DNA from: Pseudomonas sp. ML2-2023-3
GTDB taxonomy: Bacteria; Pseudomonadota; Gammaproteobacteria; Pseudomonadales; Pseudomonadaceae
Reading direction: 5' to 3'
Length of the DNA: 64,000 bases
Assembly: GCF_037055275.1 (NCBI RefSeq)
Contig: NZ_CP146343.1
Span: 2,390,501-2,454,500 of the forward strand
Shown here: positions 56,875 through 64,000 of the stretch, piece after piece
Numbering within the stretch: position 1 is the stretch's first letter
Layout: every line of letters begins with the position of its first letter
Program-made: the position numbers and the translations under genes
Notes under the pieces: model-generated
The model's input: only the letters and a program-made list of their open reading frames with translations
Database searches by the model: none
Told to the model about the DNA's origin: nothing

Positions 56875-58503
56875 TCAGGTGGTCGGGCTCAGCGCGGTGT
56901 TGCGCTCCAGTACCGGGTAGCCCAGGGCGGCAATATGGTGATGAACGCGACGGTAGTCGCGCAGCACGCGCTGGAAGATGTCTCCGGATTCTGCCCATGC
57001 CGTCTTGTCATTCTGCAGCTTGCGAAAGTGTTCGCGGCTGGCTCTTGCTTCCAGCTTGCGCATGGTCTCCTTGTGGCTGATCAGTGCATCTGCAGCGGCT
57101 ACGTCTTCGCGCAAAAAAGCGGTAATGGCCAGGTTCAGGCTGTCCAGCAGGGCCAGGTGCATGGCCTGGATGTGAATCAGCTCGAACGAAGAGAAGCGTT
57201 CACCCCGGCGAGTCCTGCGAATAGCCAACTGCGCCAGGTTGTTGAGGATGTCACCGGCATGTTCCAGATTGATCACGAACATCAGGACTTCCTGGGCGCG
57301 GTCGGCATCGGCATCGCTCAGGCCATCCTGGCCGATGTCGGCAAGATAAGCGCGGATCGCCGCACTTAGCAGATCGATGGAGTGATCCAGCTGGCGCACG
57401 TTGTCCATCGTGCGCTGATCGGGTTTCTCGAACAGCTGCAAGACCTGGTTAAGCATCAGGGATGTCATGTCCGCCAGACGCAAGGCTTCACGCACACTGT
57501 TGGACAGTCCGATATTGGCCACTTCCAGCCCGGCTTCGTCCAGATACTGCGGCATGCCCGGGTCTGCTGGCGGTTCTTGTTGTGGAAATAGGCGGGTAAG
57601 CAGGCGAGCGCAAGGTTCGGTCAGGCCGATAAACACCACTGCCAGCACCAGGCTGAACGCGGTATGCAGGTAAACAACCCAGTGCGCGAGATCGATATCG
57701 GTGCCAGCCAGCCAGGTGGCTATCAGCGGCAGGCATGGCAGCAGGGCCAGGGTGCCCAGCAGGCGGATCAGCAGGTTGCCCACCGGCAGGCGTCGCGCGA
57801 CTGGCGAACTGGCGCTCATCACTGACGGCAAGGCGCCGCCGATATTGGCGCCGAGCATCAGGGCGATGGCGGTGACCGGAGTCATCATGCCTGCGCCCGC
57901 CAGCGAAGCGATAAGCAGCACGACCGCGACACTGGAGTGGCAGATCCAGGTCAGCAGCACGGCGGCGAGCACTGCAATGATCACATCACCTTCCAGGCTT
58001 TGCATCACGGCGCGAAACACCGAGGTTTCTTCCATGTGGCCCAGACTGGCGCTGAGCAAGCCCAGGGCCAGCAGCATCAGGCCCAGACCAATCAATGCGC
58101 AGCCAACGCTTTCATGGCGCGAATCATCGCGCAGGCGAAAGATGATAAAGCCCACCAGCAAAATGACAGGCATCGCCAGCGAGGTATCGAAGCTCAGCAG
58201 CTGCACCACCAGGGTTGAGCCGATGTTGGCCCCCAGCATCACTGCCAGGGCTGGCGCCAGGCTCAAGGTGCCTGCGGCGGTAAACGAGGTTGCCATCAGG
58301 CTGACTGCCGTACTGCTTTGCAGTACGCCGGTGATACCCATTCCGGAAATCAGCGCCATCCAGCGGTTATTCAGGTTGCGCCCCATCCAGTTGCGCAGTT
58401 GGGTGCCAAAACCGCGCAGCAGGGCTGTAGAAATCATGTGGGTGCCCCATAGCAAAAGTGCGATGGCGCCCGCGAGGTTGAGCAACAGAGTGGTTCCCGA
58501 CAT
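56875..58503 (-). CDS. Na+/phosphate cotransporter family protein (NptA/YjbB type)
   Basis: A 542-residue membrane protein. Two inverted Na/Pi-cotransporter repeats fill the first about 300 residues, each with the QSST motif or its counterpart (GVLQSSTAVSLMATSF near 60 and WICHSSVAVVLLIASL near 195), giving about nine to ten helices. The C-terminal 200 residues are a PhoU-like helical domain (SVREALRLADMTSLMLNQVLQLFE..., VFVINLEHAGDILNNL). Such proteins carry phosphate in or out; E. coli YjbB exports it. GGAG lies before the ATG at 58503. Next to mgtA, it may help balance Mg2+ and phosphate, which is inference. Confidence 0.88.
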   Translation of the reverse strand: MSGTTLLLNLAGAIALLLWGTHMISTALLRGFGTQLRNWMGRNLNNRWMALISGMGITGVLQSSTAVSLMATSFTAAGTLSLAPALAVMLGANIGSTLVVQLLSFDTSLAMPVILLVGFIIFRLRDDSRHESVGCALIGLGLMLLALGLLSASLGHMEETSVFRAVMQSLEGDVIIAVLAAVLLTWICHSSVAVVLLIASLAGAGMMTPVTAIALMLGANIGGALPSVMSASSPVARRLPVGNLLIRLLGTLALLPCLPLIATWLAGTDIDLAHWVVYLHTAFSLVLAVVFIGLTEPCARLLTRLFPQQEPPADPGMPQYLDEAGLEVANIGLSNSVREALRLADMTSLMLNQVLQLFEKPDQRTMDNVRQLDHSIDLLSAAIRAYLADIGQDGLSDADADRAQEVLMFVINLEHAGDILNNLAQLAIRRTRRGERFSSFELIHIQAMHLALLDSLNLAITAFLREDVAAADALISHKETMRKLEARASREHFRKLQNDKTAWAESGDIFQRVLRDYRRVHHHIAALGYPVLERNTALSPTT

Positions 58504-58559
58504 GAGGAATCTCCACAGTACAAATAGTCATGTTTTACGAGGTCGTAATACGAAGGCAC

Positions 58560-58585
58560 GGGCTGGCGCAGTGTTGCGCCAGCCC
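58560..58585 (-). terminator. strong hairpin after mgtA
   Basis: A perfect 11-bp stem (58560-58570 with 58575-58585, GGGCTGGCGCA/TGCGCCAGCCC) has a 4-base loop but no T run behind it, 14 bases past the mgtA stop. It may be a Rho-assisted end or a processing barrier rather than a true intrinsic terminator. Confidence 0.6.
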
Positions 58586-58598
58586 ATGGCGGTTCAAG

Positions 58599-61313
58599 TC
58601 AGTACCACTGCTTGAAACGACGGATGTAGATGGTTTTCATCAGTTGCGCGACGCAGCAATAGCTGAACAGGGTGGCAACCAGCCAAGGGAAGTAGGAGAG
58701 CGGCAGCGGCTCCAGGCCAACCATGGTGCCCAGCGGCGAGAACGGCACGTAGATCCCGAGCACTATCACAATGATGGTCATCATGGTGACAGGCCATGCG
58801 GCAGTGCTCTGGAAGAACGGGATCTTGCGGGTACGCAGCATATGGACCACCAGGGTTTGCGACAGCAACCCCTCGATAAACCAGCCGGACTGGAACAGGG
58901 TCTGCATTTCCACGCTGTTGGCCGAGAACACGTACCACATCAGGGCGAACGTGGTGATGTCGAAGATCGACGAAGTTGGCCCGATCCAGATCATGAAGCG
59001 CCCGATGTTCCTGGCGTCCCACTTGCGTGGTTTTTGCAGGTACTCCTTGTCCATCTTGTCCCACGGCAAGGCCAGTTGGGAGATGTCGTACATCAGGTTT
59101 TGCAGCAGCAGGTGGATCGACAGCATCGGCAGAAAAGGGATGAAGGCGCTGGCCACCAGAACCGAGAACACGTTGCCGAAGTTTGAGCTGGCAGTCATGT
59201 TCAGGTACTTCATGATATTGCCGAAGGTCTCACGTCCTTTGAGCACGCCTTCTTCGAGTACCATCAGGCTCTTTTCCAGGAGGATGATGTCAGCCGACTC
59301 TTTGGCGATGTCCGTGCCGCTGTCCACCGAGATGCCAACATCGGCGTCGCGCAGGGCAGGGGCGTCATTGATGCCGTCGCCAAGAAAGCCCACGGTGTGG
59401 CCGTTGGCTTGCAGGGCTTTGAGCACCCGGGACTTTTGCAGTGGGGTGAGCTTGGCGAACACCGTGCGCTGTTCGACCTCCAGTTGGAGTGCAGCGTCGT
59501 CCATCGTCTCTATCTGCGGGCCCAGCAGCGGTGTGCCGGGTTCCAGGCCCACCTGACGGCAGATCTTGCTGGTGACAACCGCGTTGTCGCCGGTCAGTAC
59601 CTTGACCGCTACACCGATATCTTGCAGGGCGGCAATTGCCGGGCCCGCCGTCTCTTTTGGTGGATCGAGAAAGGTCAGCAAGCCGCGGATCACCAGATCC
59701 CGTTCGTCAGCAGTGTTGTATTGCTTTTGCGCCTGGACCTCGGGGATTTCGCGGGTGGCTATCAGCAGTACGCGGAAGCCATCCTCATTGTACTCGGTGG
59801 CCAGTGCCAGCAATTGCTCGCGGCGTGTGGCATCCAGTGCAACGCGGGTGTCGCCTTCCATGACATGGGTGGCGATGCCGAGCATTTCTTCGACGGCGCC
59901 CTTGCACACCAGCAGGTGGTCGCCTCGGGTGTCCTTGACGATGATCGACAGGCGCCGACGCACGAAGTCAAAAGGCAGCTCATCGACTTTGCTGTAGTTG
60001 AGCGGCGCATTGAACTTGGGATCCTGCCGTGAAAACTGCACCACGGCCTGATCCATCAGGTTGCGAATGCCGCTTTGGTGATGGCTGTTGAGCCAGGCCA
60101 GAGCCAGTACCGACTCATCGCGTTGGCCGCTTGGATCAACGTGATGCTCAAGGATGATGTGGTCCTGGGTCAGGGTGCCGGTCTTGTCGGTGCACAGCAC
60201 GTCCATCGAGCCCAGGTTCTGGATTGCATTCAGACGCTTGACCACCACTTTGCGCTTGGCCATGGCGGTCGCACCTTTGGCCAGGTTGGCGCTGACAATC
60301 ATTGGCAGCATTTCCGGAGTCAGGCCAACCGCCACTGCCAGGGCAAACAGGAAGGCATCGCCCCAATCGCCCTTTGAGAACCCATTGAGAAAAAACACGA
60401 TGGGCACCATGACCAGCATGAAGCGGATCAGCAGCCAGCTGACGCTGTTGACCCCGCGGTCGAACGCGGTTTGGGTGCGAGAGCCGACGATTGCTTTGGC
60501 CAGCGAGCCGAAGTAGGTGCGCGGACCGGTGGCCACCACTACGGCCCGGGCGGTGCCGCTGACCACGTTGGTGCCCATGAAGCAAATGTTGGGCAAGTCC
60601 AGCAGATTGCTCTGGTCGGCCGCGGTGCTGGAGGCGGACTTTTGTGTCACATCCCCCAGGGTGTCGTATTTCTCCACGGGCAAGGCTTCGCCGGTGAGCA
60701 CGGCCTGGCTGATAAACAGGTCCCGGGACTCGATCAGGCGGATGTCCGCCGGGATCATGTCGCCCGCTGACAGCTGCACGATATCCCCGGCGACCAATTC
60801 GCGCATCGGCACCTCATGGACAGAGGTTTTGCCGCTCGCTGTGTCCCGCCGAACGACAGTGGCGGTGGTGCGGACCATAGCTTTGAGGGCTTCGGCGCTC
60901 TTGGCAGAGCGGTGTTCCTGCCAGAAACGCAGCAGGCTGCTGAGGCCGACCATCAAGCCAATGATGATGACTTTGGTCAGGTCGCCTTCTTCGCCATCGC
61001 GCTCCGGCAGCCAGTAGTCGGTGACAAAGCTGATAACGCCCAGGGTCAGCAGTACATAGATGAAGGGGTTGTGCAGGGCCAGCAGAAATTGCACCAGGGC
61101 GTGAGGTGGCTTGTCGTGAGCCACCTCGTTGTAGCCATCGCTTTGCAGGCGTTCGGCGGCGTCCTGCTCGGTCAGGCCTGCGGTGGTGGCGCGTACATTG
61201 GCCAGAGTGGCCGAGAGACCGTTCTGGGCTTCCCGAGCGGCACGCATGGACAGTTTGTTATTGTCGCTGGCGTTGTTCTTGTCCCGAACTTCAGTGTTTT
61301 TTACGGCGCTCAT
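58599..61313 (-). CDS. mgtA: Mg2+-importing P-type ATPase
   Basis: Inner-membrane P3B-type ATPase for Mg2+ uptake, 904 residues from MSAVKNTEVRD. The start (61313) has AGGAG eight bases upstream; a longer frame is spurious. The catalytic phosphorylation site is D376 in DKTGTLTQD; the actuator motif is TGEALPVEK (207-215); VAVGLTPEMLPMIV (328-340) is the M4 ion-site motif; GDGINDAPALRDADVGISVDSG is the hinge. Ten helices are expected. The acidic/asparagine-rich N-terminal tail is like that of E. coli MgtA. Upstream lie a 12-codon ORF and a hairpin that may regulate expression. Confidence 0.95.
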   Translation of the reverse strand: MSAVKNTEVRDKNNASDNNKLSMRAAREAQNGLSATLANVRATTAGLTEQDAAERLQSDGYNEVAHDKPPHALVQFLLALHNPFIYVLLTLGVISFVTDYWLPERDGEEGDLTKVIIIGLMVGLSSLLRFWQEHRSAKSAEALKAMVRTTATVVRRDTASGKTSVHEVPMRELVAGDIVQLSAGDMIPADIRLIESRDLFISQAVLTGEALPVEKYDTLGDVTQKSASSTAADQSNLLDLPNICFMGTNVVSGTARAVVVATGPRTYFGSLAKAIVGSRTQTAFDRGVNSVSWLLIRFMLVMVPIVFFLNGFSKGDWGDAFLFALAVAVGLTPEMLPMIVSANLAKGATAMAKRKVVVKRLNAIQNLGSMDVLCTDKTGTLTQDHIILEHHVDPSGQRDESVLALAWLNSHHQSGIRNLMDQAVVQFSRQDPKFNAPLNYSKVDELPFDFVRRRLSIIVKDTRGDHLLVCKGAVEEMLGIATHVMEGDTRVALDATRREQLLALATEYNEDGFRVLLIATREIPEVQAQKQYNTADERDLVIRGLLTFLDPPKETAGPAIAALQDIGVAVKVLTGDNAVVTSKICRQVGLEPGTPLLGPQIETMDDAALQLEVEQRTVFAKLTPLQKSRVLKALQANGHTVGFLGDGINDAPALRDADVGISVDSGTDIAKESADIILLEKSLMVLEEGVLKGRETFGNIMKYLNMTASSNFGNVFSVLVASAFIPFLPMLSIHLLLQNLMYDISQLALPWDKMDKEYLQKPRKWDARNIGRFMIWIGPTSSIFDITTFALMWYVFSANSVEMQTLFQSGWFIEGLLSQTLVVHMLRTRKIPFFQSTAAWPVTMMTIIVIVLGIYVPFSPLGTMVGLEPLPLSYFPWLVATLFSYCCVAQLMKTIYIRRFKQWY

Positions 61314-61441
61314 GATGAGTACTCCTGTCGCCAACTCTTGACCGTGCATATGTTGATTTACCTTTTAAGAGGCGAGCCAATATATGCCGAGTCGCAAACT
61401 TCGCAATCGGTTTGGTTGAAGTGTTAAGTGCGCTTTATATT

Positions 61442-61478
61442 CCCGCTGCGGCGAGGTAATTAATATTCGCGCAGCGGG
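61442..61478 (-). promoter_or_regulatory. 9-bp hairpin in the mgtA leader
   Basis: CCCGCTGCG (61442-61450) and CGCAGCGGG (61470-61478) are perfect reverse complements with a 19-base loop. On the message strand the first arm covers codons 8-10 of the 12-codon leader ORF and its stop codon lies in the loop. No T run follows, so it is not a terminator by itself. Confidence 0.65.
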
Positions 61479-61498
61479 TAACTACTGGCTTCTTCCAT
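61460..61498 (-). CDS. candidate 12-residue leader peptide upstream of mgtA
   Basis: ATG at 61498 with GGAG six bases upstream opens a 12-codon frame reading MEEASSYPLREY, stopping at TAA (61460-61462), 146 bases upstream of mgtA. The end of the ORF lies inside the 9-bp hairpin at 61442-61478, so ribosome progress would decide whether the stem forms. E. coli mgtA is controlled by a leader peptide (MgtL) with a different sequence. The ORF is too short to judge by coding statistics; the good ribosome binding site and the hairpin are the only support. Confidence 0.4.
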   Translation of the reverse strand: MEEASSYPLREY

Positions 61499-61541
61499 AA
61501 GGAACTCCAGTTCATTAATACGTGTTTTAATGGGGTGGAAC

Positions 61542-61781
61542 TTAGCGCAAAAAGCGACTCTGCGGGTCCTGAGAGTCGGCCATGCTCCAGCGCTGTTCCA
61601 GTTGGCCGGTGGCCGGACTGACGCGCCATTGCACTTGGCGGTGCGCAGGTTTTACGCCGGTTACGGGGATGGAGAAGGGGGATTTTGCCGAGCGAGCATA
61701 GGTGGGCTCGCGGGACAGTTTCACGCGCATGCTGGAGGCAAAGGCGCGAACGCCGGGTAGAACATGGGTTTTAAAGGTCAT
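61542..61781 (-). CDS. small basic protein upstream of mgtA
   Basis: A 79-residue Arg/Lys-rich protein (MTFKTHVLPGVRAFASSMRVKLSREPTYARSAK...), without signal peptide or membrane segment. A WRVSPATGQLEQRW segment suggests beta-strands. GAGGTG lies four bases before the ATG. The gene is on the same strand as mgtA, 228 bases upstream of it, and is itself preceded by a structured leader of about 200 bases with a sigma-70-like promoter. I do not recognise a family; co-transcription with mgtA is likely but not certain. Confidence 0.65.
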   Translation of the reverse strand: MTFKTHVLPGVRAFASSMRVKLSREPTYARSAKSPFSIPVTGVKPAHRQVQWRVSPATGQLEQRWSMADSQDPQSRFLR

Positions 61782-61791
61782 AACACACCTC

Positions 61792-61923
61792 GTGACCGGA
61801 CTGCTGCCGGTGAGGTCGTTACGTTGGAGCGTCAGGCTCTAGCGCAGTTGACCCCGCCGTGCAGGCGAGTCCCGTCAATGTCTGGGTTGGGCGTCCGGAT
61901 CTCCGTATTAACGGTGACCGGAC
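61792..61923 (-). promoter_or_regulatory. candidate attenuator or riboregulator upstream of the small basic protein gene
   Basis: On the message strand GTCCGGTCAC occurs twice: at 61914-61923 and again at 61792-61801, where it abuts the GAGGTG ribosome binding site. Between them CCGGAC (61893-61898) can pair with the GTCCGG of either copy. The two pairings are mutually exclusive, and the second would bring structure next to the ribosome binding site. Confidence 0.45.
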
Positions 61924-61945
61924 AGCGACTAGATACTGTGTCCAT
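61832..61945 (-). CDS. candidate 37-residue small ORF in the leader of the small basic protein gene
   Basis: ATG at 61945 opens 37 codons ending in TGA at 61832-61834; the peptide begins MDTVSSRCPVTVNTEIRT and is rich in Thr, Pro, Asn and Asp. AAGAAG four bases upstream is a weak ribosome binding site. It lies entirely within the predicted leader transcript and overlaps the repeat segments that can form alternative stems. It may be a regulatory small ORF; coding status is unproven. Confidence 0.35.
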   Translation of the reverse strand: MDTVSSRCPVTVNTEIRTPNPDIDGTRLHGGVNCARA

Positions 61946-61993
61946 TGGCTTCTTTTGTGAAGTTTATAGGCGGCCTGAATGACCGACCTGTGC

Positions 61994-62022
61994 AATCTAC
62001 TCAGTGGGTGGTGGTGCGTCAA
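61994..62022 (-). promoter_or_regulatory. sigma-70 promoter of the small basic protein-mgtA region
   Basis: Minus strand: TTGACG (62017-62022), a 17-base spacer and TAGATT (61994-61999). Transcription would start near 61987, about 206 bases upstream of the 79-residue ORF. Confidence 0.55.
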
Positions 62023-62194
62023 CTTTAAAACCCGATAAGTGTGGCTGGTACAGCAACGGTTCAGGAAGTTTGAAAGTTATTGGAGTGGTTCGCCGGGCAG
62101 GTCATTAATATGACAGGGAAGTTACAGGTATAGAAGTTTGAAGTGCGCAGCACTTATTGTTGGTGCGGGATATTCGCCTGGCCACACACACCTT

Positions 62195-62259
62195 GTGGGA
62201 GCGGGTGCGGTTAAGCTGGAATATCGCGCCGCTTGCATCGCGGGCAAGCCCGCTCCCAC
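62195..62259. repeat. REP pair with one damaged arm, copy 4
   Basis: The right arm (62237-62259) is an intact inverted unit, GTGGGAGCGGGCTTGCCCGC on the minus strand. The left arm starts GTGGGAGCGGG at 62195, but its CTTGCTCGCGAT half is replaced by other sequence. Confidence 0.8.
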
Positions 62260-62288
62260 AGGTCCTGGGTACAGACTCAAATCGCAGA

Positions 62289-62326
62289 CAAACAAAAACG
62301 CCCGGCAGAGCCGGGCGTTTTGTATT
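62289..62326 (-). terminator. Rho-independent terminator after infA
   Basis: AAAACGCCCGGC and GCCGGGCGTTTT make a 12-bp perfect stem with loop AGA, about ten bases past the infA stop; the tracts allow function on both strands. Confidence 0.92.
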
Positions 62327-62333
62327 GACTTGA

Positions 62334-62552
62334 TTAGCGAGCGCGGTAAGTGATGCGCCCTTTGCTCAAGTCATAGGGCGTCAGCTCGACGCGCACTTTG
62401 TCACCGGTAAGAATACGAATGTAGTTCTTGCGCATCTTGCCGGAAATATGCGCGGTTACGACGTGCCCATTTTCCAACTCCACACGAAACATGGTGTTGG
62501 GCAGGGTGTCGACGACAGTGCCTTCCATTTCGAAGCTGTCTTCTTTCGACAT
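62334..62552 (-). CDS. infA: translation initiation factor IF-1
   Basis: S1/OB-fold initiation factor that binds the ribosomal A site. The 72 residues [22 protein letters not shown]...[13 protein letters not shown] match the universal IF-1 length and sequence. GAGGG lies ten bases before the ATG at 62552. A longer open frame upstream (to 62654) has no support. Downstream of bpt on the same strand, as in other pseudomonads. Confidence 0.98.
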
Positions 62553-62650
62553 GCAGTAAAGCCCTCGGTGTCCAATGAATGGCCCGGTGCAACTGCGCCA
62601 GGCAAAAGCGGCGTGCATTGTGCCCGAAAAATGGGGTTTAAGCCAAGGGT

Positions 62651-63358
62651 TCAATCAAGAGAGCTCCATCTCTGATTAATCAGCAGCTCAATGGGCCTGT
62701 ATTCGGTCTTGTAATTCATCTTTTTGCAGTTCTTGATCCAGTACCCAAGGTACAGCGCATCCAGCCCCAGGCGCTGCGCTTCTGCAATTTGCCAGAGAAT
62801 GCCGTAACGCCCCAGGCTGCGCCGCTCTTCGTCAGGGTCGTAGAAGGTGTACACGGCAGACAGGCCGTTGGGGAGCACGTCTGTGACGGCAACAGCCAGC
62901 AAGCGCCCGTCCAGGCGGAACTCGTAGAACTTCGAGAACGGGAGGTCGCGTACCAGGAAGGTTGAAAATTGATCGCGGCTGGGTGGGTACATGTCGCCGT
63001 CGGCATGCCGTTGCTCGATATAGCGCTGGTAAAGGTCAAAGTTCTCTTCGCTGAAACCAGGCTTTACCGGCCGAACCTGTAAATCGGCGTTGCGCTTGAA
63101 AATGCGTTTTTGCTGACGATTGGGCTTGAACCGGGCGACAGGAATGCGCGCAGGGGTGCAGGCATCGCACTTCAGGCAATGGGGGCGATACAGATGGTCG
63201 CCACTGCGCCGAAAACCCATTTCGGACAAATCGGCATAAACCTGCACATCCATCGGCTGACTGGGGTCGAGGAACAGCGTGGTGGCCTGTTCGTCAGGCA
63301 AGTAGCTGCAAGCGTGAGGTTGAGTGGCATAAAACTTCAGACGCGCCAGCTCGGTCAT
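62651..63358 (-). CDS. bpt: aspartate/glutamate leucyltransferase
   Basis: Bacterial protein transferase that adds leucine to N-terminal Asp or Glu, creating an N-degron. The 235 residues show the Cys-rich N-terminal domain ([19 protein letters not shown], with [18 protein letters not shown]) and the C-terminal acyltransferase domain ([55 protein letters not shown]). It is often annotated as arginyltransferase Ate1-like, but the bacterial members of this length use leucine. Adjacent to aat, another tagging enzyme; clpS and clpA lie about 6 kb away. Confidence 0.93.
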
Positions 63359-63412
63359 GATGGGCCCTCGGGAAATCTTTAAATTAAGTGTAAGCCAGTG
63401 TGTAAAAGTCGC

Positions 63413-64000
63413 CTATAAAACCCACTGTGCAGTTGTGGGTTGATCCAGGTGCTGGTGCAAATAATCGGCGAATTGCTGACGCGGGATCGAACGTGCGCCC
63501 AGGCTCTGCAGGTGATCAGTCGGCATCTGGCAGTCAATCAGCACAAAGCCCCAGGCCTTGAGGTGTTTGACCAGTGTTGCAAAACCGAACTTTGACGCGT
63601 TGTCGGCACGGCTGAACATGGATTCGCCAAAAAACAACTGGCCCATTGCCAGGCCGTACAGCCCGCCCACCAGTTCGCCGTCATCCCAGACCTCAACCGA
63701 ATGCGCATGGCCGCGAGCGTGAAGTTCGATGTAGGCGTTTTGCATGTTGTCGGTAATCCACGTGCCGTCCGCATAGTCGCGCGGTGCTGCACAGGCTTGA
63801 ATCACGGCGGCAAAGTCACGGTCAAAGCTGACTTGGTAGCGCTGCTGGCGCAACAGCTTGCCCAGGCTGCGGGACACGTGCAGCTCTTCAGGAAACAGCA
63901 CTGTGCGAGGGTCAGGTGACCACCAGAGGATCGGCTGGCCTTCGCTGAACCACGGAAAGCAGCCGTGACGGTAGGCCTGGATCAGTCGGTCTGCCGACAG
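63413..64000 (-). CDS. aat: leucyl/phenylalanyl-tRNA-protein transferase, 3' part
   Basis: Aat adds Leu or Phe to N-terminal Lys or Arg to create N-degrons. The gene runs off the right end of the window; 195 residues are visible from [32 protein letters not shown], which is close to the N-terminus (the family is about 230 residues, so about 25-35 are missing). The region [55 protein letters not shown] and [21 protein letters not shown] are diagnostic. Fifty-four bases separate it from bpt. Confidence 0.96.

Follow-up and report, generated by a model that had tools for sequence, protein, structure and literature searches.

Upstream of mgtA in Pseudomonas sp. ML2-2023-3, a sigma-70 promoter is followed by two tandem leader units, A (61957-61779) and B (61520-61311). 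Coordinates throughout are those of the window, the whole stretch of 64,000 nucleotides that was analysed. The two units have a common plan. A small ORF comes first and is followed by stems with compensatory changes, the last element is a hairpin located at the following gene's SD region, and the strand that covers this SD region has a covarying alternative partner upstream. The best reading of the arrangement, which we place just on the probable side, is a ribosome-coupled, probably Mg2+-sensing pair of tandem translational switches. The arrangement resembles the Mg2+ leaders of enteric bacteria but belongs to none of them.

A preliminary description of this DNA had listed the promoter, ORFs of 37, 79 and 12 codons and a hairpin. 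All are present in the sequence, and they are regarded as beyond chance because they are conserved among relatives, not on the strength of a single sequence. It had also proposed a multi-layer mgtA leader, analogous to the enteric leaders but distinct from them, and the conserved parts, covarying stems and mutually exclusive pairings at the SD regions agree with that proposal. The leader does appear layered, but what had been taken for a single leader is two tandem units, one for each gene. Leader control of Mg2+ genes by small ORFs is already known from enteric bacteria and, if the reading given above is true, its tandem version in Pseudomonas and Entomomonas would make the strategy older or mean that it has arisen more than once. 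Two further leads from the locus are a small protein, so far uncharacterised, with ties to Mg2+ uptake and a conserved RNA family that did not turn up in Rfam.

Layout of the leader

The order on the minus strand of the window is infA (which we take to encode IF-1), its terminator (62321-62295), approximately 270 bases, the promoter, the small gene and mgtA. The start of mgtA was placed at the ATG at 61313 and not at the longest-ORF start at 61349, because the SD sequence CAGGAG and this ATG are conserved among relatives. The gene after mgtA, at 56875-58503, presumably encodes a membrane protein of the Na/Pi cotransporter type. An inverted pair, GTGGGAGCGGGCTTGCCCGCGATG ... CCGCTCCCAC, lies between infA and the promoter at 62261-62190 and is presumably a Pseudomonas REP element.

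Features of the leader in the order of transcription:
61994..62022, minus strand: sigma-70-type promoter TTGACG-N17-TAGATT, with 9 of 12 consensus matches
61972..61988, minus strand: hairpin at the predicted 5' end of the transcript, with a stem of at least 5 in 73 of 79 regions
61822..61957, minus strand: core RNA of unit A (closing helix, hairpins H1 and H2), scoring 133.8 bits with covariance model R1, which was built from sequences that include the window
61832..61945, minus strand: sORF A, 37 codons (MDTVSSRCPVTVNTEIRTPNPDIDGTRLHGGVNCARA), with the first 8 codons near-invariant and the rest and the frame not
61925..61945, minus strand: 5' strand of the closing helix, a near-invariant block that holds the sORF-A ATG (alignment and pair counts)
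61892..61924, minus strand: hairpin H1, with 6 of 13 pairs changed on both sides
61850..61873, minus strand: hairpin H2, with 84.8% of cells paired and one pair changed on both sides
61845..61855, minus strand: alternative partner (anti-anti-SD) GGGGTCAACTG, made up of the H2 3' strand and linker and complementary to GACCTC of the anti-SD strand
61826..61845, minus strand: 3' strand of the closing helix, GCGCTAGAGCCTGACGCTCC (pair counts)
61779..61823, minus strand: SD-sequestering hairpin of the small gene (anti-SD 61823-61809; SD and ATG 61791-61779)
61542..61781, minus strand: small basic protein gene, 79 codons (homologues, pN/pS)
61311..61520, minus strand: unit B RNA, scoring 166.9 bits with covariance model R2, which likewise was built from sequences that include the window
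61485..61510, minus strand: possible hairpin P0 over the sORF-B SD and start, visible in the window sequence
61460..61498, minus strand: sORF B, 12 codons (MEEASSYPLREY), with SD CTGGAG at 61510-61505
61442..61478, minus strand: stem P1, CCCGCTGCG...CGCAGCGGG, whose 5' arm is sORF-B codons 8-11; this is the 9-bp hairpin of the preliminary description
61387..61410, minus strand: stem P2, whose 3' strand GCGAC is the alternative partner of the P4 5' strand
61347..61386, minus strand: stem P3 with inner stem (pair counts and column-pair scan)
61322..61343, minus strand: stem P4, abutting the mgtA SD (CAGGAG) and weak in the window itself
58599..61313, minus strand: mgtA, Mg2+-translocating P-type ATPase (NF011702, TIGR01524), with conserved SD and ATG

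The genomes followed up were the 83 of the genus whose MgtA match reaches 72% identity or more; among the matches listed, the best MgtA of other genus genomes is more distant, often at about 56% identity. Unit A was found in 81 of the 83 (79 by pattern, and L048 and L087 by the covariance model) and is absent from the other two regions, L088 and L089. The promoter had been called a good one. A stretch of 1.8 kb contains two sigma-70-like sites, where shuffled sequence gives 0.8 ± 1.0, and the call is therefore weak when taken alone, but besides its 9 matches to consensus a promoter-like pair precedes sORF A in all 79 regions with the sORF-A block, as scored with a permissive regular expression and no control run. 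A T run (at least 5 T in 7) behind the GC hairpin at the 5' end gives a terminator-like arrangement close behind the promoter in 40 of the 79 regions. It is absent in L001-L004, which are close relatives of the window, and no terminator-like site was found in the minus-strand leader within the window.

Conserved structures and alternative pairings

Removal of near-identical sequences reduced the 79 unit A regions to 36, of which 30 form set A1; the leader alignments do not include L088 and L089. In A1, 87.2% of cells are paired, compared with 30-42% in slid controls, and 47 cells are changed on both sides against 15.3 in shuffles that ignore relatedness. The 8 pairs changed on both sides (5.3 in shuffles, with the value reached by 21 of 500) and the 22 further pair types (20.7, reached by 147 of 500) are not beyond the shuffles. 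The strongest covariation evidence for unit A sits in H1, and one pair of H2 is unpaired in 15 of the 30 sequences. The closing helix pairs the start region of sORF A with GCGCTAGAGC..., and one of its pairs is compensated in L058 by changes in both strands but broken in L017 and L049. Another pair is A-C in 9 of 30 sequences, and the divergent L087 appears by eye to keep the helix with other letters.

The start of sORF A, MDTVS[SR]R[CR], is kept in 77 of the 79 regions. These eight codons are also paired in the RNA and are conserved at synonymous sites too. Beyond codon 8 the frame is not kept, lengths range from 25 to 37 codons, and there is no good SD. The motif EPE is present in 14 of the 79 sORF A peptides, where it falls within the RNA-constrained sequence.

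The 79-codon ORF that unit A precedes, claimed earlier as a gene for a basic protein, is on the sequence evidence a real protein gene, with pN/pS of 0.39, 0.54, 0.45, 0.38 and 0.32 in five groups (of 7, 10, 3, 6 and 14, respectively). Homologues were found in 62 of 298 genus genomes, and 18 regions that carry the sORF-A block and no detected homologue have an ORF of 36-89 codons with little likeness at the same start. The 79 aa protein belongs to no family in the Pfam or NCBIfam libraries, and its AlphaFold model is of low confidence (pLDDT 58.5). The one match to a solved structure (E 0.46) is at chance level and was discarded. In P. aeruginosa, PA4826 adjoins mgtA, and mgtA and its neighbours respond to Mg2+, according to PMC11218974; no P. 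aeruginosa name occurs among the 120 homologues listed of 218.

For unit B, 80 regions were reduced to 66 by removing near-identical sequences, and 40 of the 66 form set A2. In A2, 90.2% of cells are paired (slid controls 26-41%), and 16 pairs and 75 cells are changed on both sides against 7.3 and 26.2, respectively, in shuffles that again ignore relatedness. In the 40 sequences of A2, P1 is 95.9% paired and shows changes on both sides in 5 of its 8 pairs, but 11 of the 66 aligned leaders, all of them outside A2, have lost its 3' arm. P4 is supported by columns 187/201, which are C-G in 21 and U-A in 17 of the 40, and is deleted in 5 of the 66. The 26 leaders outside A2 include all 11 that have lost the P1 3' arm (5 of these also without P4), so the A2 pair percentages and the unit B permutations given below are blind to the P1 and P4 deletions; the column-pair scan over all 66 leaders does take them in. 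Hairpin P0 was rejected as a conserved element, since it breaks in many of the 40 sequences.

Five genomes (L056, L057, L063, L067 and L068) have kept unit A and mgtA and lack sORF B, P1 and P4, so that the unit B switch is gone, yet P2 and P3 are still present. Six more Pseudomonas leaders are without the P1 3' arm. sORF B was found in 75 of 82 upstream regions, with an SD-like sequence in 60 of the 75 by a permissive test, and is exactly 12 codons long in 35. Its pN/pS within Pseudomonas (0.70, 0.77 and 1.20 in groups of 17, 12 and 16) indicates no protein-level constraint. Codon 2 is acidic in 50 of the 75 and codon 3 in 35; the window has E2 and E3, and its codon 5 is not acidic. An acidic-Pro-acidic motif in the first 20 codons was found in none of the Pseudomonas sORF Bs. 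In the window the stop codon lies about 50 bases before P2, so a ribosome on sORF B does not reach P2. Of the checks that had been suggested for the leader, synonymous-site bias fails within Pseudomonas for both sORF A and sORF B, and compensatory changes in the stems were found in both units.

Alternative pairings were sought in an unguided scan of all column pairs in the 66 unit B and 36 unit A regions. In unit A, H1 leads, followed by the H2 3' strand paired with the anti-SD strand (3 compensated pairs each), against a background in which some pairings outside the model also reach 2. In unit B, P1 and P3 lead, and third comes the pairing between the P2 3' strand and the P4 5' strand (5, 5 and 3 compensated pairs, respectively). 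The unit B scan also paired the P3 3' strand with bases immediately behind the mgtA SD (2 compensated pairs in 30 cells); such a helix would close around the SD and be incompatible with P3.

The duplexes become weaker when partners are exchanged between species. The unit A alternative was matched by 6 of 5000 permutations and the unit A SD:anti-SD duplex by none, and the unit B alternative, P4 and P1 were likewise each matched by 0 of 5000. These permutations (44 distinct of 79 regions for unit A; 26-36 distinct of 40 for unit B) ignore relatedness, and the counts are to be read as support and not as probabilities. L001 has a strong unit A alternative (-15.5 kcal/mol), but in the largest clade the sequences taken to represent 28 and 4 regions give weak ones (-8.3 and -6.8 kcal/mol, respectively). 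The P1 3' arm with the inner P3 strand was rejected as an alternative for unit B, as 1295 of 5000 permutations were as good.

Related leaders and candidate mechanisms

Outside Pseudomonas, the 119 family genomes contain this type of MgtA in four cases, at 71-72% identity and all in a single other genus. Two leader peptides of this sister genus have exact matches among database proteins, under the names Entomomonas asaccharolytica and E. moraniae. All four Entomomonas leaders give full-length R2 matches to unit B (E 6e-7, 9e-7, 4e-5 and 1e-4), and R1 does not recognise unit A in any of the four. The layout is retained nonetheless, with the promoter-like pair in 4 of 4, an sORF A that starts MD (21 codons in three, 9 in one) and a small gene of 71-72 codons shown in 3 of 4.

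The Entomomonas sORF B is exactly 42 codons long and starts MEEPPS in all four, with this start kept through varied synonymous codons. The motifs EPEP, EPEP, EPDP and EPES occur in the respective peptides, and EPDP is the ribosome-destabilising motif of E. coli MgtL as described in PMC11282234. The enteric peptide had been called different from the Pseudomonas one, which holds for the window peptide, in that it lacks EPDP, but not for the Entomomonas sORF B, which is acidic and proline-rich like MgtL. The close pair L253/L254 gives a pN/pS of 0.17 for sORF B, against 2.64 and 2.05 in the other frames. The five distant Entomomonas pairs are uninformative for sORF B (0.72-1.06), as are the Entomomonas values for sORF A (0.53-0.68). 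The mgtA SD region can pair with sORF-B codons 29-38 in all four (-15.9 to -22.5 kcal/mol, with no shuffle control), and full translation of this sORF B would open the SD helix during ribosome passage, which is opposite to the simplest MgtL model. MEEPPS...EPEP in Entomomonas and MDEASSRF or MEEASSYPLREY in Pseudomonas offer a comparative series for peptide or RNA sensing.

Rfam searches of 58000-64000 of the window and of seven relatives gave no match up to E = 5, and neither unit matches a family there. The M-box and Mg_sensor RNAs (which we take to be RF00380 and RF01056) likewise place Mg2+ transporter genes under RNA control and are not matched here; for the M-box riboswitch there was no covariance-model match in the window or the seven relatives.

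The closest system in logic appears to be Salmonella mgtQ, in which an acidic small ORF is combined with a 1:2 / 2:3 / 3:4 switch at the mgtB RBS [PMC8092293]. Shared with mgtQ-mgtB are an ORF of very few codons placed between a small gene and a downstream gene for an Mg2+ P-type ATPase, an acidic codon 2 (E2 in the window), a stem whose 5' arm is made of ORF codons and an anti-RBS strand that, in Pseudomonas by prediction, has a choice of two mutually exclusive partners. Pseudomonas differs in having two tandem units and in that an acidic codon 2 is not universal (50/75). mgtQ has acidic codons 2 and 5, whereas the window sORF B has E2 and E3. In mgtQ the RBS is freed by the partner of the ORF stem itself; the covarying alternative in unit B is not the P1 3' strand but the P2 3' strand, and the ORF codons sit in P1, another stem.

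Through Entomomonas, the closest relative in peptide would be MgtL, whose leader ORF is also directly before mgtA [PMC11282234, PMC11552253]; EPEP or EPDP is near the N-terminus in 3 of the 4 Entomomonas peptides. The window peptide MEEASSYPLREY, in contrast, has one proline and no EPDP, the Pseudomonas structures end at SD sites, and there is no match to the Rfam mgtA leader. Salmonella mgtCBR also has two small ORFs, mgtM and mgtP, in one Mg2+ transport operon, possibly with separate inputs, but in the account of PMC3641672 both are in the operon leader and act on transcription, while the Pseudomonas small ORFs each precede their own gene and point to translation. The M-box leader with a uORF in Mycobacterium tuberculosis similarly brings together an Mg2+ RNA, a small upstream ORF and a translational platform, though in a different phylum [PMC12810186] and with an M-box that is unmatched in Pseudomonas. 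No description of a Pseudomonas mgtA leader of this kind was found among the papers listed from the literature covered, subscription papers and preprints being outside its scope.

In the favoured reading of two ribosome-coupled translational switches, one transcript from the promoter at 62022-61994 would carry both, with unit A gating the small basic protein and unit B gating mgtA. Behind the small ORF of each unit, a downstream strand would pair either with the SD region (closed) or with the 3' strand of the upstream stem (open). The pairing would be chosen by RNA folding together with what ribosomes do on the small ORFs, whether they initiate or, at low Mg2+, fall off early at acidic codons. 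sORF A and the Pseudomonas sORF B would be translated. Mg2+ as the signal is suggested by the gene controlled and by the mgtQ and MgtL analogies, and both units would presumably be open at low Mg2+. In its favour are the presence of unit A in 81 of the 83 genomes, the covariation of closed and alternative pairings, and the layout, R2 matches and peptide motifs seen in Entomomonas. The P1 and P4 deletions, the poor SD and unkept frame of sORF A and the weak unit A alternative in the largest clade speak against a switch of this kind, as do the lack of an acidic-Pro-acidic motif in the Pseudomonas sORF B, its stop ahead of P2 in the window, the two A1 measures within the range of shuffles, the background pairings in the unit A scan and the failure of R1 in Entomomonas.

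Several of the same observations fit direct, riboswitch-like sensing of Mg2+ or another ligand, with the small ORFs incidental or secondary and the sORF-A block acting as a strand of a multi-branch aptamer; we regard this as possible but not likely. The first eight codons of sORF A, conserved at synonymous sites and base-paired in an ORF that lacks a good SD and a conserved frame, are what such an aptamer strand might look like, the closing-helix pair compensated in L058 and the apparent compensation by eye in L087 point the same way, and P2 and P3 persist in the five genomes without sORF B. Set against this, L017 and L049 break the very pair that L058 compensates, no Rfam family matches up to E = 5, and Entomomonas has kept the two small ORFs in place although the unit A RNA is unrecognisable. 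A further proposal, considered rather doubtful, is that unit A represents a structured sensor RNA of a new class. Its multi-branch fold, in which the near-invariant strand of the closing helix doubles as a start-codon region, would switch the SD of a small cation-linked protein, and an altered version of it would recur before mgtA. One transcript would then process two inputs related to Mg2+, with direct competition between RNA folding and ribosome loading.

It is unlikely that the structures are fixed, giving low basal translation and 5'-end protection while regulation occurs only at the promoter, for example by PhoP. PhoPQ regulates Mg2+ transporters in general, and the promoter-like pair (79/79) and the 5' hairpin (73/79) would suit this explanation, but a static structure needs no alternative pairings and these covary alongside the closed ones, and the small ORFs recur in the sister genus. 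Transcription attenuation under small-ORF control, at the 5' hairpin and its T run or through Rho within the leader, seems improbable. Salmonella mgtA does use Rho [PMC11552253], and the T run follows the hairpin in 40 of 79 regions; it is missing from L001-L004, however, the minus-strand leader of the window has no terminator-like site, and the conserved 3' hairpins are at SD sites, as translational control would need.

Distribution and remnants in Pseudomonas

The block CAATGGACACAGTATCTAGNCGCTG, with at most 2 mismatches, was found in 80 of 298 genus genomes and the reversed pattern in none of them. The same scan over 194 genomes of the order gave two matches, both in the genus, and R1 gave no credible match outside the genus in 119 family genomes. 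An exact scan of named contigs for the block gave 112 stretches, and the 80 listed are all from Pseudomonas. mgtA is located 450-950 bases downstream on the same strand in 103 of these 112 loci. Seven of the remaining nine have only 108-860 bases before the stretch ends; L144, among them, shows the mgtA start.

Neither R1 nor R2 finds a leader upstream of the second MgtA gene in the genome of the window (L280; 56% identical; G000:C1:4425444-4428041, outside the window), nor upstream of the other MgtA type (approximately 56%) in sets of 8 and 7 regions, where the one R1 match (E 2.2) is at chance level. Also taken as chance were a weak R1 match in G592 (E 0.057), a second R1 match in the genome of the window at G000:C1:296429-296525 (24.1 bits, E 0.023), and R2 matches of 40-72 bases in ten genomes of the class (E 0.008-0.09).

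The last two of the nine loci are L173, by its length the contig on which L239 (G279) carries a remnant of the operon left by a deletion, and L206 (Pseudomonas sp. GM18). In L206 mgtA is gone while unit A and the small gene have stayed, the next gene being, by eye, the one that follows mgtA in the window. L088 and L089, whose MgtA is 72-73% identical, have an 18-codon ORF ending EVPA..G before mgtA, also by eye, and R2 matches part of L088 (E 1.7e-4).
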